Of a stretch of 64,000 nucleotides of DNA, positions 5,539-13,637 are shown piece by piece; the stretch's first letter is position 1; each line of letters begins with the position of its first letter. Source of the DNA: Halovivax limisalsi (GTDB taxonomy: Archaea; Halobacteriota; Halobacteria; Halobacteriales; Natrialbaceae); the NCBI RefSeq assembly GCF_023093535.1, contig NZ_CP095757.1:3410001-3474000 (forward strand), written 5' to 3'. A model generated the notes under the pieces. That model was not told the origin of the DNA, ran no database searches, and saw only the letters and a list, made by a program, of their open reading frames with translations. The translations under genes were made by a program, and so were the position numbers.

Positions 5539-7161
5539 TCAGCGGTCGGCGATCGCCCCGACGTACGCCGTCTCGGTTCCACCGCCAGGCGTCTTCCAGG
5601 CCATCAACGTCCGCCGCAGCGGGAGCGGATCGTTTCCCGAGCGTGTCCACTTGTACAGGGCCTCCTCGGCGATCGTCTGCGCGGTCTCGAAGCTGTCGGA
5701 CTTCAGCCTCGAGAGAATCGTATCGATCCGCATTCGCTCCGGCTCGCCGTTCTCGTCGTACTCGATCTCGGCGCCGTTCTTTGCCAGCCACTCCTGAAAC
5801 GGCGAGCAGTCGGCGATGTGATCGGCCATCCCCATGATCGACTGCATTCGGTCGGCGTAGCTGTCGATCGCGTACTCGGCGCTCTCGACGAGCGCTCGAA
5901 TCTCCTCGCGATACTTCCGGGCGCGGTAGCTCACCTGGCCGTCATCGAGCTGGACGATCTCCCCGAGGTCCTTGATCGCGCGGTAGATCGTCGCCGGATG
6001 CTTGCCGAGTTGGTCGGCCAGGTCGTCGACGCGTCGGCCGCCGTCCGTCGCGACGGTACCCGCGACCTCCTCGGCGGTCTCGCCCATGTCGCGAAGCGTC
6101 GTCAGTAGCAGGTGGTCGCTCTTTGCTTCCAGGCGCGGCGTCGGGTCGGGGTAGATCTCGACGGACTCCTCGCGCGTCGTCGCCTCGAAATGGTCGTCTT
6201 CGACGTACACGCCGCTCGCGTCGGGCGCGAGCGGAATATCGTCCCACGCCAGGAAGTTCAGCAGCGTCTCCTCGATCTCCTCGACGACCTGGCGGCGTTC
6301 GCCCCAGGACCACGCCTCGCCGCCGTTCATCGCCTTGTTCACCAGCACCTCGACCTTCGGATGGTACGACGGGTGATCGCTGTCGACGGCGTCGGCGTCG
6401 CGCAGCTGGTAGATCTCGAACTTCTGTCCGTAGGTGTGGCCGGGTAGGAGTTCGCCCACCGCGGACGGCTCGAGGACCAGCCGGTTCTGGTGGTTGATAA
6501 TCTCCTCGTTGTCGATCTTCAGCTCCGCCTTCACCCCTTCGAGGTCCGTCAGGTGATGCATCACCTTCTGGAGCACTCCCGACTTCGCCAGGCGCTCGGC
6601 CCACTCTCGTCGAACACGTACGTAGCGCTCGTGCGCCCACTCGCGACTGTACTCGGGGTGTGGCGGCTTCCGGAAGTACTCGCGATAGATCGGCTCGCCG
6701 GCCTCCTCGAAGATCGCGTGGAAGAATTCGGGGAGCAGTTCGAGCGCACGCTCGGGCTCGATGTTCGACGGGGAGTACTCGACGTCGATGCCCTCGACCT
6801 CGCCGAACTGGCTCTCCCACGGAAGTCTGATCGGCTCGCCAGTCTCCCAATGGCGCATATCGGGGAATCGCGGCGAGATGTTGAACGACGCTTTCGACTC
6901 GCCCGTCCCTCGACCCACGATATCCCACTCGTAGAGCCGCGGCGCGTCGATCGGGTCGGTCTCGGCAGGGGCGAATCCCGACTTCGAATAGCTCACCTGG
7001 ACGTGCCAGGGCTCGCCGTCGACCGAGATGTCCAGCTCCAGGTAGCCCTCGAACGGCGGCCCGAGCATCACTTTCGACAGTGCCTGATACGGTCCACGGC
7101 CCCACTCGGCCCACTTCCAACGGCCGTGGCTCTCGTGTGGGGCATCCGCGACCTGCGACAT
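5539..7161 (-). CDS. DUF7845-like protein with C-terminal winged helix (element-associated)
   Basis: A 540-residue soluble protein matching the haloarchaeal family I recall as DUF7845. Landmarks are PYQALSKVM near residue 23, the NISPRFPDMR stretch, YSREWAHERYVRVRREWAE near 170, LLPGHTYGQKFEIYQLRD near 235 and SWGERRQVVEEIEETLLNFL near 285. Residues 375-425 form a winged helix (DDLADQLGKHPATIYRAIKDLG). Members are frequent on haloarchaeal plasmids, proviruses and integrated elements; a replication or regulation role is plausible but unproven. It is the last and largest gene of a seven-gene coupled operon. The ATG at 7161 has a GGAG ribosome site just upstream. Confidence 0.7.
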   Translation of the reverse strand: MSQVADAPHESHGRWKWAEWGRGPYQALSKVMLGPPFEGYLELDISVDGEPWHVQVSYSKSGFAPAETDPIDAPRLYEWDIVGRGTGESKASFNISPRFPDMRHWETGEPIRLPWESQFGEVEGIDVEYSPSNIEPERALELLPEFFHAIFEEAGEPIYREYFRKPPHPEYSREWAHERYVRVRREWAERLAKSGVLQKVMHHLTDLEGVKAELKIDNEEIINHQNRLVLEPSAVGELLPGHTYGQKFEIYQLRDADAVDSDHPSYHPKVEVLVNKAMNGGEAWSWGERRQVVEEIEETLLNFLAWDDIPLAPDASGVYVEDDHFEATTREESVEIYPDPTPRLEAKSDHLLLTTLRDMGETAEEVAGTVATDGGRRVDDLADQLGKHPATIYRAIKDLGEIVQLDDGQVSYRARKYREEIRALVESAEYAIDSYADRMQSIMGMADHIADCSPFQEWLAKNGAEIEYDENGEPERMRIDTILSRLKSDSFETAQTIAEEALYKWTRSGNDPLPLRRTLMAWKTPGGGTETAYVGAIADR

Positions 7162-7164
7162 CGG

Positions 7165-7452
7165 TCACTCCTCCGCGGACCGCTTCGCCTCGATCAGGCC
7201 GGACAGCACTGCCCTCGGATTCCACCAAGTCACCGTCCCACACCGGTGGCAGACGTGCCTGAACGAGGTGATCGTTTTCGCGTCGAGCGTCACCGGGTCG
7301 ATGTCGATCGACTGGCCGACGTCTTCTGGCCGGGCCTGCTTGACGTGCACGCGCTGGCAGCCAGTGCAGATCGCGTCGACGGGAAACCCCTGCAGCCCCG
7401 ACTTGGGGCTCGCGAGTTCGGCTCTGTAGTTTCGATCCGCGTCGACACTCAA
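7165..7452 (-). CDS. Zinc-ribbon protein of element operon
   Basis: A 95-residue protein with two CxxC knuckles, CTGCQ near residue 29 and CHRCG near 68, which should bind one zinc. The start is a TTG at 7452 that overlaps the stop of the preceding gene (TTGA). A strong AGGAGGTGA ribosome site six bases upstream supports this start. The function is unknown; such ribbons in haloviral and element operons are usually thought to bind nucleic acid or proteins. It ends three bases before the DUF7845-like gene. Confidence 0.6.
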   Translation of the reverse strand: MSVDADRNYRAELASPKSGLQGFPVDAICTGCQRVHVKQARPEDVGQSIDIDPVTLDAKTITSFRHVCHRCGTVTWWNPRAVLSGLIEAKRSAEE

Positions 7453-7640
7453 GGCAACTCACCTCCTCTGAGTGGTGTGCATGACAGGTTCGGGAGACGT
7501 CGCGGTTTGTACTGCCGACCACGCGGATACGTCGCCTGGCAATCAACGCAGAGAGTGAGACCGACGGACTCGTCCGGCGGGACGTAGACCCTCGCGAGTC
7601 GCGGATTGACAAGCTCAGAACACTCATAGCACTCCGTCAC
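7449..7640 (-). CDS. Small zinc-finger protein
   Basis: A 63-residue protein beginning with GTG at 7640. CYEC near residue 4 and a second pair around CVDC near residue 32 suggest one treble-clef or ribbon zinc site. The C-terminal third is basic (RGRQYKPRRLP), consistent with nucleic-acid binding. It overlaps both neighbours by four bases, so translation is coupled across the operon. No named family was recognised. Confidence 0.55.
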   Translation of the reverse strand: MTECYECSELVNPRLARVYVPPDESVGLTLCVDCQATYPRGRQYKPRRLPNLSCTPLRGGELP

Positions 7641-8101
7641 CGCTGCTCACCTCCCGGCCCGACGAGATCTTCGAACACCACCGTCCAGGGCACCTGCCGG
7701 TACTCCTCCGCGTTTGGTCCGCCGTCGCCCGTCTCCCACCAGGTCGAACACAGACAGTCGACCGTCTCAGCGCTCAACAGCGACATGCGGACGATCCCGG
7801 TTCGATCGGTCACCGCGAGTACGTACTCGCCCGCCGCGTCGACCAATCGATCGTGGCTTTCGCGCTTGATCCACCACCGGCCGTACCGCCCGCAATAGCG
7901 GCGCCGACACGATTTTACCTCGACCGGCGTCCCGGCCTCTACGATTGGCTCCGGAGTAGACTCCGCCTCGAGCGGAGCGACGAATCTCGCGTCGAACCAG
8001 TCGGGTTTGTCATTGTCAGCAGCGACGTGCTCGAGCGGCCAGCGCTCACACGCAGCTGTCTCGACCGTCCGCCCCCAGTCCGCGTTGTCCGCGACGCTCA
8101 C
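7637..8101 (-). CDS. PD-(D/E)XK-like nuclease-fold protein
   Basis: A 154-residue protein. WFDARFV near residue 34 supplies an Asp, and VEVKSCRRRY near residue 62 supplies the E-x-K pair, giving the D...ExK metal-binding core of the PD-(D/E)XK superfamily. GRYGRWWIKRESHDRL follows, as in haloarchaeal resolvase- and restriction-like proteins carried by plasmids and proviruses. Trp-rich C-terminal sequence completes the domain. It may cut or process element DNA; the substrate is unknown. The GTG at 8101 overlaps the upstream stop (GTGA), so it is translationally coupled. Confidence 0.6.
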   Translation of the reverse strand: MSVADNADWGRTVETAACERWPLEHVAADNDKPDWFDARFVAPLEAESTPEPIVEAGTPVEVKSCRRRYCGRYGRWWIKRESHDRLVDAAGEYVLAVTDRTGIVRMSLLSAETVDCLCSTWWETGDGGPNAEEYRQVPWTVVFEDLVGPGGEQR

Positions 8102-8217
8102 AGCATCTCACCCCGGACCTGGTTGAGTTCACGCGAGCAGTCGGGACACAGCGGTCGCGTCGCAGGCACCGAGTCACCGCAAAGCGGACATTCCTCGCGA
8201 TCGACGAGACGGCTCAA
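8098..8217 (-). CDS. 39-residue zinc-ribbon miniprotein
   Basis: Read directly from the reverse strand because it is very short: MSRLVDREECPLCGDS followed by VPATRPLCPDCSRELNQ and a short tail. The two knuckles, CPLC and CPDC, are 11 residues apart and make a compact zinc ribbon. The start is TTG at 8217, overlapping the upstream stop, with GGAGGTGG just upstream as ribosome site. It overlaps the nuclease-like gene by four bases. The position inside a fully overlapping operon argues that this is a real gene. Confidence 0.6.
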   Translation of the reverse strand: MSRLVDREECPLCGDSVPATRPLCPDCSRELNQVRGEML

Positions 8218-8375
8218 ACCAGACCACCTCCGTACGCTACTACGCCCCCATCCGACCGGATGTCTCGATCCGGCCCCTGACCATCGCTCTCACTCGCGAG
8301 TGTCGCAGGATGAGGAATCGACGTCCCCGTCTCGACGTCGTACAGCCGGTTCGCGCGGACGAACCCGGACGTCAT
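8214..8375 (-). CDS. Small hypothetical of element operon (53 aa)
   Basis: A 53-residue frame from ATG at 8375 (MTSGFVRANRLYDVETGTS...) to a TGA at 8214. It overlaps the upstream gene by ATGA and the downstream TTG start by four bases. It has no motif, is rich in Gly, Asp and Ser, and is probably disordered or partner-dependent. It is supported mainly by exact overlap at both ends and haloarchaeal composition. Confidence 0.45.
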   Translation of the reverse strand: MTSGFVRANRLYDVETGTSIPHPATLASESDGQGPDRDIRSDGGVVAYGGGLV

Positions 8376-8605
8376 CGCTCCTCACCCCCGTCCGTTTCAG
8401 GCTGACCCGGGCTTCCAGGTGCCAGATGGCGCCGCTGGCAGTCGAATGCGTGGCCCGCCTCGTGCGTGCCGTCAGTGAGCCGCGTACACCGTCTCGTACA
8501 ATTTGGACACCGGAACTCCCGGCTCTTCTCGACGGACGGCCGCGTGTAGCGTCGCCTACGCAGTTCGTCGGAGTCGATTGCGTCGAGTAGGGCTGCTCGA
8601 CTCAC
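8372..8605 (-). CDS. Zinc-finger protein, first gene of element operon
   Basis: A 77-residue protein (MSRAALLDAIDSDELRRRRY...) with CPNCTRRC near residue 33 and a CysHis-containing stretch (HEAGHAFDC) further on, giving a probable Cys/His zinc site. The GTG at 8605 is chosen because AGGAGG lies eight bases before it; a GTG three codons earlier would overlap that site. Its stop overlaps the next ATG. The basic stretch RRRRYTR suggests nucleic-acid contact. An AT-rich promoter-like tract lies 100 bases upstream. Confidence 0.55.
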   Translation of the reverse strand: MSRAALLDAIDSDELRRRRYTRPSVEKSREFRCPNCTRRCTRLTDGTHEAGHAFDCQRRHLAPGSPGQPETDGGEER

Positions 8606-8698
8606 GCTGACCACCTCCTTTCACTCGGTACAATCGCCCGACTGCATCGGGGTGGAACCGATCCCCTCACTTCCTTCGCAAAATCGCGACTTCCTTTC

Positions 8699-8724
8699 CC
8701 TTCTAATATATAGAAATATATCAG
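8699..8724 (-). promoter_or_regulatory. AT-rich promoter-like tract
   Basis: Overlapping TATATA and ATATAT motifs in an otherwise GC-rich region, between the operon start (8605) and the tRNA gene. This is the most likely TATA box of the leftward operon and implies a leader of about 70 bases, consistent with the Shine-Dalgarno sites in that operon. Confidence 0.4.
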
Positions 8725-8779
8725 TAGGGGCCCTACAGACCCGTCTAACGGGACACTTCGAAACGTATAAGGAAAGCGA

Positions 8780-8851
8780 TGGACTCGCTGGGATTTGAAC
8801 CCAGGGCCTCTTCCTTGCGAAGGAAGCGATCTGCCACTGATCTACGAGCCC
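8780..8851 (-). tRNA. tRNA-Ala (anticodon CGC)
   Basis: The reverse strand folds as a 72-base cloverleaf. The acceptor stem pairs GGGCTCG with CGAGTCC with one G-U pair. The anticodon stem CTTCC/GGAAG encloses loop TTCGCAA, so the anticodon is CGC (GCG codons). The T-arm contains GTTCAAATC. The discriminator base is A, and CCA is not encoded. No intron is seen. The 3' end faces the element operon on the left, the usual attachment site for haloarchaeal integrases. Confidence 0.95.
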
Positions 8852-9904: not shown

Positions 9905-11170
9905 TTATTTCTCGTTGACGCTGAGGACCTGTCCGGCCGCGATGGTCTGACCCATGTCGCGGATGGCGAAGCTGCCGAGTTCCGGAATGTCGCTGGCCGC
10001 CTCGATCGAGAGGGGCTTTTGCGGCCGGATCGTGATCTTCGCGGCGTCGCCCGACTGGATGAAGTCGGGGTTCTCCTCGGTGACCTCGCCGGTCGAGGAG
10101 TCGATCTTCGCGTCGATGGACTCGATCGTACACGCGACCTGGGCGGTGTGGGCGTGGAAGACCGGGGTGTAGCCGGCCGTGATGACCGAGGGGTGCTGCA
10201 TGACGACGACCTGGGCCTGGAAGGTCTCGGCGACCGTCGGCGGGTCGTCGGCGGGGCCGCAGACGTCACCGCGGCGGATGTCGTCCTTGCCGATGCCGCG
10301 AACGTTGAAACCGACGTTGTCGCCAGGTTCGGCCTTCGGCACTTCCTCGTGGTGCATCTCGATCGTCTTCACTTCGCCGCCCACGTCGCTGGGCTGGAAG
10401 GAGACGTTGTCGCCGGTGTTCATGACGCCGGTCTCGATGCGGCCGACCGGGACGGTCCCGATACCGGAGATCGTGTAGACGTCCTGAATCGGCAGGCGCA
10501 GCGGTGCGTCCGTCGGCTCCTCGGTCTCGGGCAGGTCGTTGAGCGTCTCGAGGAGGGTGCGACCGTCGTACCACGGCGTGTTGTCCGAGGACTCGGCAAC
10601 GTTGTCGCCCTCGAAGGCCGAGATCGGGATGAACGAGTTGTCGTCGACCTGGAAGTTGACCTGGTTGAGGAGCTGGTTGACCTCCTCGACGACCTCGTTG
10701 TAGGTGTCCTCCGAGTAGTCGACGACGTCCATCTTGTTCACCGCGATGATCAGCTTCTCGATGCCCAGGGTGCGCGACAGGAAGACGTGCTCCTGGGTCT
10801 GGGGCGCGACGCCGTCGTCGGCGGCGACGACGAGGACCGCGTGGTCCGCCTGCGACGCGCCGGTGATCATGTTCTTGACGAAGTCGCGGTGGCCGGGCGT
10901 GTCGACGATGGTGAAGTAGTACTTGTCCGTGTCGAACTCCTGGTGGGCGATGTCGATGGTGACGCCTCGCTCTCGCTCCTCGGCGAGGTTGTCCATGACG
11001 TAGGCGAACTCGAAGCCGCCCTTCCCCTTCTCCTCGGCTGTTTCGCGGTGCTGTTCGATGACGTGCTCCGGGACGCTCCCCGTCTCGTAGAGGAGCCGAC
11101 CCACGAGCGTGCTCTTTCCGTGGTCAACGTGGCCGATGATGGCCAGGTTCTGGTGCGGTTTGTCGCTCAT
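9905..11170 (-). CDS. tuf: Translation elongation factor EF-1 alpha
   Basis: A 421-residue GTPase that delivers aminoacyl-tRNA to the ribosome. All G motifs are present: GHVDHGKST (G1) near residue 13, RGVTIDIAH (G2), DTPGHRDF (G3), NKMD (G4) and a SAFEGDN stretch (G5). Domains 2 and 3 follow, with GVAPQTQEH and [10 protein letters not shown]. Length matches archaeal aEF-1 alpha. A TATA-like box lies about 27 bases upstream of the ATG, so the message is probably leaderless or nearly so. It is cotranscribed with rps10. Confidence 0.97.
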
Positions 11171-11635: not shown

Positions 11636-12316
11636 CTACCAGCCACACTCGCCGGAGGCGCAACCGTCGTAACAGTCGGATGCCGTCGTATCACAGATAC
11701 AACCGAACTGCGGTTCGTAGAAGCATTCGACCGTCATTTCCTTCTTGTACCCGTAGGTGCCCTCACTGGCACAGCAGTCCTCGGCACAGTAGGTCTCTCC
11801 GTCCTCGGGACACGGCGACGATTCCAGTTTGACACTATCGGTGTCGGGATTGATCGCGAATCGGTCGTCGGTCCGGGTATCTTCGACGACCGCGTAGCTC
11901 CGATCGACACCTGGTCGCACATACACGGCGATGTCGTATCGATCGGTGTTCTTCGAAACCGAAATGTGAGCGGTCGGCGTTCCCTCCTCGATGTCCGCAG
12001 CGACGTCGAACCCCTCCGTCTCGGCATCCGTCGAGAGCGTCACCTCGGGATCGAATTGCGGTTCGAACGTGAACTGATCGATAGACGCGGAATCGAGAAT
12101 CCCGCGTCGAGCGAGCTCGGACCGCAACTCGACAGTTTCCGCTTCGACCACCGTTCGAGCGCGGTCGGGATCGAGTAGCTCCTGCTTTTGTTGTCGGGCC
12201 TGCTCCGCAGCCCCGGTACCGCTGATCGCACCCAGGCCACCCATGACTGCGGCGGATCCGGCGACTCCGCGAAGTATCGATCGACGTCTAACCTCGGTCG
12301 GTGTGTCTCGTGACAT
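11636..12316 (-). CDS. Tat-exported protein with ten-cysteine C-terminus, halocin-like precursor
   Basis: A 226-residue protein starting MSRDTPTEVRRRSILRG. RRRSILRG followed by a Gly/Ala-rich stretch to about residue 35 is a twin-arginine signal. Residues 40-165 are an acidic, cysteine-free domain. The last 60 residues contain ten cysteines in the pattern C-x7-C-x3-CC-x14-C-x7-C-x-C-x6-C-x3-C-x4-C. The layout (Tat signal, acidic domain, compact ten-Cys tail) copies the halocin C8 precursor, where the middle part gives immunity and the tail is the released peptide, but I see no sequence match to that tail. An in-frame TTG five codons earlier is an alternative start. Disulfides are likely outside the cell. 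Confidence 0.6.
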   Translation of the reverse strand: MSRDTPTEVRRRSILRGVAGSAAVMGGLGAISGTGAAEQARQQKQELLDPDRARTVVEAETVELRSELARRGILDSASIDQFTFEPQFDPEVTLSTDAETEGFDVAADIEEGTPTAHISVSKNTDRYDIAVYVRPGVDRSYAVVEDTRTDDRFAINPDTDSVKLESSPCPEDGETYCAEDCCASEGTYGYKKEMTVECFYEPQFGCICDTTASDCYDGCASGECGW

Positions 12317-12680: not shown

Positions 12681-13637
12681 TCAACGCCCGGCGAGGCGCT
12701 CGACGTCCGCCAGTACGGCCGTCGCCGTCTCCGGGCCGCCGGCGCCGGCGCCGCTGTTGTGTAACGTGCCCGCGTACTCTGTCTCGAACTGGACGATGTT
12801 TCGCGTGCCGTCGACGGCCAGCGGGCTGTGTGCGCCGACCAGTCGCGGACCGACGCGGACGCCCTCCCGCGTCGCCTCGCCGACGAGTCTGATCGTCTGG
12901 CCGTCCTCGCTCGCCAGTTCGAGCGCGCTCTGTGGGATGCCCTCGATGCCCTCGACGGCGGCGTCCGAAAGCGAGAAGCCGCCGTCCGCGAGGACGTTCG
13001 CGAGGATGACGAACTTCAGCGCCGCGTCGGTCCCGTCCACGTCGAACGTCGGGTCCGCTTCCGCGACGCCGAGATCCTGGGCCTCGGCCAGGACGTGGTC
13101 GTAATCCAGTCCCTCGCTCTCCATCCGGCTGAGGATGAAGTTCGCCGTCCCGTTGAGGACGCCCCGGACCGCCGTGACGTGCTCGGGCATCCGGTCCTCG
13201 ATCGTCGAGTACACCGGAATCGCCCCGCCCACTGTCGCCTCGAAGCGGACCGAGCCCTCGCTCCGGGCTTCCAGCGCTCGCAACTCGTCGTAGCGTTCGG
13301 CGACCGGTCCCTTGTTCGCGAGGACCGCGTGCCGATCGGCCGCGAGGGCTCGTTCGACGTGGCCGAATCCCGGTTGGGCGTCCTCGAGCGTCGTCGGCGT
13401 CGCCTCGACCAGGACGTCGTACGGCGTCTCGAAGACCACCTCGTGGGCGGCGTCGCCGACGGGGTCGCCGCGTCGCTTTCGCTCCAGAGCCGACGCCACG
13501 TCGACGCCCGACTCGTCGACGACCGCGCCGCGCGAATCGGCGATCGCGACGACCTCGTGGCCGTACTCGCCGGCCAGGTCGGCGACGGATCGGCCGACGG
13601 CCCCGGCGCCGACGATCGCCAGTCGACGACCACCCAT
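12681..13637 (-). CDS. hom: Homoserine dehydrogenase
   Basis: A 318-residue NAD(P)-dependent enzyme reducing aspartate semialdehyde to homoserine, the branch point to threonine and methionine. The Rossmann start is LAIVGAGAVGRSVADL, and VLANKGPVAERYDEL gives the family's NK-P motif. GAIPVYSTI and GVLNGTANFILSRM are the catalytic-domain signatures. The lysine in DAALKFVILANV matches the proposed catalytic Lys. There is no C-terminal ACT domain; a separate ACT protein is encoded immediately upstream, overlapping by one base (TGATG), and probably supplies regulation. Confidence 0.95.
   Translation of the reverse strand: MGGRRLAIVGAGAVGRSVADLAGEYGHEVVAIADSRGAVVDESGVDVASALERKRRGDPVGDAAHEVVFETPYDVLVEATPTTLEDAQPGFGHVERALAADRHAVLANKGPVAERYDELRALEARSEGSVRFEATVGGAIPVYSTIEDRMPEHVTAVRGVLNGTANFILSRMESEGLDYDHVLAEAQDLGVAEADPTFDVDGTDAALKFVILANVLADGGFSLSDAAVEGIEGIPQSALELASEDGQTIRLVGEATREGVRVGPRLVGAHSPLAVDGTRNIVQFETEYAGTLHNSGAGAGGPETATAVLADVERLAGR

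Follow-up and report, generated by a model that had tools for sequence, protein, structure and literature searches.

An exported protein with a ten-cysteine tail

The window, a 64,000-nucleotide stretch of the Halovivax limisalsi chromosome, carries on its minus strand an open reading frame that runs from an ATG at 12316 to a TAG stop codon at 11636 and encodes 226 residues (Table 1). The original prediction had seen in its product the order of a Tat signal, a cysteine-free acidic domain and a ten-cysteine tail that is characteristic of halocin C8, and this three-part layout was found as stated and is real. The Tat motif VRRRSIL occupies residues 9-15 and is followed by a hydrophobic stretch with an AxA-type end (GTGAAE). 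In database searches the N-terminus matched, weakly, Tat-signal models or known Tat substrates, and most of the top PDB profile hits were of the same kind. The middle domain (about residues 39-164) contains 28 D/E versus 14 K/R and no Cys, and in the AF2 model the pLDDT of residues 40-160 mostly exceeds 90. All ten cysteines of the protein lie in the tail (residues 169-226), and the chance of at least ten Cys in 58 residues is about 4e-11 at a Cys frequency of about 0.8%.

Pfam and NCBIfam returned nothing for the protein beyond a weak Tat-signal match, and no relative of the middle domain was found in Pfam, NCBIfam or the PDB. Fold searches with the AF2 precursor model, in which the middle domain is confident, gave no convincing or meaningful match, PDB included. 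Searches with the window protein gave zero matches in plasmid, phage and IMG/VR data and in a scan of named genomes. The immediate neighbours, which by eye we take to be an EF-1A-like gene (9905-11170) and a homoserine-dehydrogenase-like gene (12681-13637), include no operon partner. Elsewhere in the window, a cluster of short ORFs (5539-8851; the ORF at 7449-7640 has several Cys) adjoins a tRNA-Ala gene with a CGC anticodon (8780-8851), and this cluster might be an integrated element.

Table 1. Features of the precursor gene in the window, and enzyme-adjacent genes at other loci
Feature	Position	Strand	Basis
Whole gene, exported precursor, 226 aa	11636..12316	-	intact ORF; same-layout homologues in other haloarchaeal genomes
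Tat signal peptide, residues 1-38, VRRRSIL motif	12203..12316	-	sequence; weak Tat-signal model matches
Acidic middle domain without Cys, residues 39-164, helices then beta strands	11825..12202	-	family alignment; AF2
Linker preceding the tail, residues 150-168, presumed cleavage region	11813..11869	-	post hoc motif analysis
Tail with ten Cys, 58 residues (169-226), presumed mature disulfide-rich peptide	11639..11812	-	family Cys parity
C-terminal Trp codon (protein end ...ECGW), proposed prenylation site	11639..11641	-	family Trp-enzyme association; GW ends rare
TATA-like box TTTATAAT, upstream of start codon	12374..12381	-	sequence
34-aa peptide ending APW	L170:8215-8319	+	beside divergent ComQ/PalQ-like enzyme
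34-aa peptide ending GVW	L171:8992-9096	-	beside divergent ComQ/PalQ-like enzyme; TATA-like element upstream
Tat-exported 232-aa protein, last residues NNSWI	L169:7048-7746	-	beside G051 enzyme copy

A haloarchaeal family with hypervariable tails

By its sequence, the window protein is a member of an unnamed haloarchaeal family with hypervariable Cys-rich tails. A protein search over 100 relatives found homologues in 8 genomes, including one paralogue in the window genome, and a profile search over 292 genomes of the class placed the family in 36 of them (12%) with up to six copies per genome. The member list was drawn from a further profile search, over the ORFs of the loci fetched. Members have in common a Tat signal, a domain of roughly 110-140 residues that can be recognised family-wide, and a tail that varies widely in both sequence and Cys number; tandem copies with unlike tails occur (L093, L071, L108 and L117). 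The original prediction had reasoned that in a new halocin type the middle domain should be conserved among homologues whose tails vary, and that it should involve neither tails fused to housekeeping domains nor conservation throughout the haloarchaea. Such varied tails were found in this patchily distributed family, no fusion of that kind was seen, and the great majority of sampled genomes lack the family.

The window genome encodes two further precursors, one ending in GCC (L066, 1217241-1217867) and one ending in CSNW (L067, 1064479-1065132). In close pairs with computable dS, dN was below dS for domain and tail alike, and in 6 of 7 close pairs the tail was no less conserved than the domain (Cys included), so that by sequence comparison the family tails are under purifying selection. 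Given that the layout is kept in other genomes and that dN is below dS in close pairs, we take the window ORF to encode a protein under selection and not to have arisen by chance.

There is no conserved gene for a receptor, for immunity or for transport. ABC transporters were considered as immunity genes and set aside, given that they make up 4 of 94 near neighbours, which is about chance expectation. Proteins resembling the Hvo_1808 family adjoin family members in five loci (L073, L096, L115, L117 and L119), with an HExxH motif in four of the six copies there; elsewhere this protein family is ubiquitous, and most of its genes are not linked to precursors. As candidates for a maturation protease these HExxH surface proteins were rejected, since 280 of 292 genomes encode their family and the second His is missing from two of the six copies. 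PQQ beta-propeller genes adjoin precursors in a few loci and showed no clear link to them.

Relation to halocin C8

The halocin C8 precursor (ProC8, with the tail modelled by NCBIfam TIGR04449) resembles the window protein in Tat export, in a compact ten-Cys tail, in a middle domain with few or no cysteines and in a patchy distribution among haloarchaea; the Tat export and Cys-rich tail layout of the halocin C8 family is present in the window protein. By contrast, Cys number varies among tails of the present family, and a subset of its members carries a terminal Trp and a link to an enzyme. The claim that the tail is unlike halocin C8 in sequence held, with no TIGR04449 match to the window protein up to E 10 or to 13 family members up to E 1. 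TIGR04449 itself was detected in 30 of 194 class genomes, the window genome being without a match, and locus L049, which carries what we take to be halocin C8 itself, served as the positive control for these searches. A comparison by hhalign of 55 family middle domains with 16 halocin C8-type middle domains (the HalI part) gave a probability of 0.9% with an E value of 0.064 over 17 columns. On these sequence comparisons, the window protein is not a relative of halocin C8 in either tail or middle domain.

Of 56 family members, 14 carry a VSTQ-like motif shortly before the first tail Cys, as do 8 of 16 halocin C8-like precursors, with 1.3 and 0.1 expected, respectively, from the middle domains. 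It may possibly represent a shared cleavage signal. We did not retain it as a feature common with TIGR04449 precursors, as it is enriched but was picked post hoc, and it is not evident in the linker of the window protein.

An isoprenyl-synthase-like enzyme adjoins precursor genes

Clustering of neighbouring genes in the discovery set revealed an enzyme family of about 287 aa adjoining precursor members at six loci in five genomes, and G390, found later, brings the genomes in which the enzyme adjoins a family member to six. Pfam gave no match for the one member queried, and NCBIfam matches were weak and to isoprenyl diphosphate synthases. An enzyme profile also hit isoprenyl diphosphate synthases (best a nonaprenyl diphosphate synthase, E 7.6e-7), and the AF2 model (pLDDT 86) matched FPP synthases (best E 7.6e-6, TM 0.68). 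The FARM (DDxxD) is invariant, while the SARM position reads (L/V/R)DxxQ and is preceded by an invariant Gln. PalQ itself retains the SARM aspartates. A Gln upstream of the SARM is usual in ordinary synthases too, making the degraded SARM more telling than the Gln. In Trp prenyltransferases the SARM is repurposed for Trp recognition, and ComQ is without a true SARM (PMC13290415 section 9; PMC10853753). Sequence and model together suggest a divergent, ComQ/PalQ-like homologue of trans-isoprenyl diphosphate synthases, in which the FARM is intact and the SARM degenerate, as in ComQ (PMC13290415, PMC10853753).

The enzyme is rare, being found in 9 of 292 and then in 11 of 392 genomes, among them G070, whose weak match probably represents an ordinary synthase; 6 of 125 genomes of the window's taxonomic family have it. 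The window genome's own enzyme gene (1063399-1064247) lies on the same chromosome beside paralogue L067 and is not adjacent to the window gene. Searches of IMG/VR and plasmid data with the enzyme gave zero matches.

The enzyme is associated with a C-terminal tryptophan

All enzyme-adjacent family members end in Trp or in Trp plus one residue, those of the discovery set ending in CSNW, GGGGW, CPGW, CGWW, DGW (two), CGWL and VGW. G390, the strongest of the later enzyme hits and outside the discovery set, has its enzyme directly beside a family gene ending in CCGTCGW. Trp is the last residue of 8 of 13 members in enzyme-bearing genomes versus 0 of 49 in other genomes (Fisher 3.8e-7), or, counted per genome, of members in 5 of 6 genomes with the enzyme versus 0 of 26 without it (p 3e-5). 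As a background, 461 confidently called neighbour genes included 2 with Trp as last residue, 8 with Trp in the last two and 0 with a GW end.

The association extends to enzyme loci with other kinds of neighbour. Divergent enzymes of G196 and G126 lie no more than 20 bp from genes for 34-aa peptides ending in EYAKLAPW and EYARLGVW; the two genomes belong to one genus and the loci are orthologous, and they were counted as one event. Other loci, 729 kb in all, contain no comparable ORF. The L169 protein, which has an Ala/Gly-rich C-terminal part, is bacteriocin-like, is unrelated to the precursor family and belongs to no NCBIfam family. With the enzyme loci of G384 and of a Haloarcula MAG contig left out of the judgement as lying near contig ends, the enzyme-adjacent precursor carries Trp at or next to its C-terminus in 9 of 9 distinct loci that could be judged.

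Some members in enzyme-bearing genomes have no terminal Trp (L066, L108, L173 and L174), indicating that not every family member is served by the enzyme. In the family tree, Trp enders fall in several groups, with five to six changes under a looser definition and three under a strict one; a tree with all Trp enders in one clade was not rejected (AU p 0.086), and only one independent pair was supported. Because the tree cannot firmly show repeated origins of the Trp, the above counts are possibly inflated by shared ancestry. A DNA pattern of CGW followed by TAA or TGA occurred at background level, the pattern missing the TAG used by the window gene. The Trp-enzyme link is thus statistical and structural, not biochemical.

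The window protein, with its ECGW end, has an acceptor-type Trp at the precursor C-terminus as in ComQ/PalQ-type systems, and the Gly before it agrees with PalQ, which requires a C-terminal Trp and prefers a preceding Gly (PMC13290415). As in ComX/ComQ of Bacillus and PalX/PalQ of Paenibacillus, an enzyme resembling trans-isoprenyl diphosphate synthases is encoded beside the precursor in related loci. By contrast with ComX and PalX, the present precursor is archaeal and Tat-exported, with a long unrelated leader and a disulfide-rich core, and its prenylation is a prediction.

A proposed prenylated peptide and its alternatives

The explanation that we favour, which we judge to have somewhat better than an even chance, is that the product of the window gene is the precursor of a halocin-like peptide that is secreted, disulfide-rich and prenylated on its C-terminal Trp, with prenylation, release and antagonism as the parts that we infer. 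The new-halocin reading of the original prediction keeps its layout, its lack of halocin C8 resemblance and its varied tails; it missed the terminal Trp and the link to a ComQ/PalQ-like enzyme. A rival explanation that leaves these two elements aside is the precursor of a plain microhalocin, exported by Tat and releasing an unmodified disulfide-rich antimicrobial tail, with a HalI-like immunity middle domain and an incidental Trp. The layout in common with halocin C8 and the patchy, multi-copy distribution fit such a precursor, as does the fact that most family members have no terminal Trp and come from genomes without the enzyme. However, the rarity of GW ends (0/461), the confinement of last-residue Trp within the family to genomes with the enzyme, and the absence of homology between the middle domain and halocin C8 precursors make this explanation unlikely.

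If the prenylated Trp is accepted, the tail could instead be a ComX/PalX-like pheromone, a signal for a membrane receptor and not a toxin. Every characterised ComQ/PalQ-type enzyme acts on Trp (PMC13290415) and ComX is a pheromone; the wide tail differences between genomes are what signalling specificity would need. By contrast, neither a histidine kinase nor any other receptor recurs beside the enzyme among the neighbouring genes listed, a point on which the haloarchaeal loci differ from ComX/ComQ, and several copies with unlike tails per genome suit weapons better than one signal. We consider a pheromone quite improbable.

Among members with six or more tail Cys, the Cys count was even in 54 of 56 tails, and the two proteins with an odd count (L072 and L106) each have a single middle-domain Cys. 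A further six tails that we counted (L095, L107, L111, L167, L173 and L174) were all even, giving 60 of 62 overall with a range of mostly 6-22 Cys; the middle domain of L107 likewise contains one Cys. A coin-toss p value for parity would overstate the case, the sequences being related. Given that parity is kept across counts of 6 to 22, which is hard to explain otherwise, the even counts point to paired disulfides in the tails. That the tail stays attached and the exported protein functions undivided at the surface, perhaps in metal binding or redox, is very unlikely: the cleavage site is a presumed one and some tails are extremely Cys-rich (L086, 22 Cys in 57 residues), but even counts favour disulfides, and beyond a few shared Cys columns the family alignment contains no conserved ligand pattern, the tails being too variable for one ligand.

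According to the favoured prenylated-peptide model, the window protein would be translated and its terminal Trp then prenylated in the cytoplasm by the ComQ/PalQ-like enzyme, the copy encoded beside L067 being assumed to act in trans. The middle domain would serve as leader and folding aid. The protein would next leave by Tat, the tail would fold with five disulfides and be cleaved off around residue 165, and it would be anchored by its prenyl group to membranes, where it would act. The most likely role of the tail is halocin-like antagonism between haloarchaea, with peptide signalling, by analogy with ComX, as second choice; antagonism is preferred on account of the patchy distribution, multiple copies and hypervariability of a family that is under purifying selection. 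Another haloarchaeal antagonist, HmHapP (HFX_0892) of Haloferax mediterranei, likewise comes from an exported precursor and is activated by proteolysis; it differs in that activity resides in the N-terminal 45 residues, with two helices, and the word cysteine is absent from the paper describing it (PMC12893001).

No description of Trp prenylation in Archaea was found in the open-access library searched, and a paper on archaeal RiPPs mentions neither prenyl nor tryptophan (PMC12144867). We lean slightly towards the view that haloarchaea make ribosomal, Tat-exported, hypervariable cystine-rich peptides whose C-terminal Trp is prenylated by an archaeal PalQ-like enzyme, which would be a first in Archaea. 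This view predicts that each precursor adjoining the enzyme carries Trp at or next to its C-terminus. If it is true, Trp prenylation, described from bacteria in the papers cited, would be extended to Archaea, and the window protein would open the way to a large pool of disulfide-rich peptides that archaea secrete.
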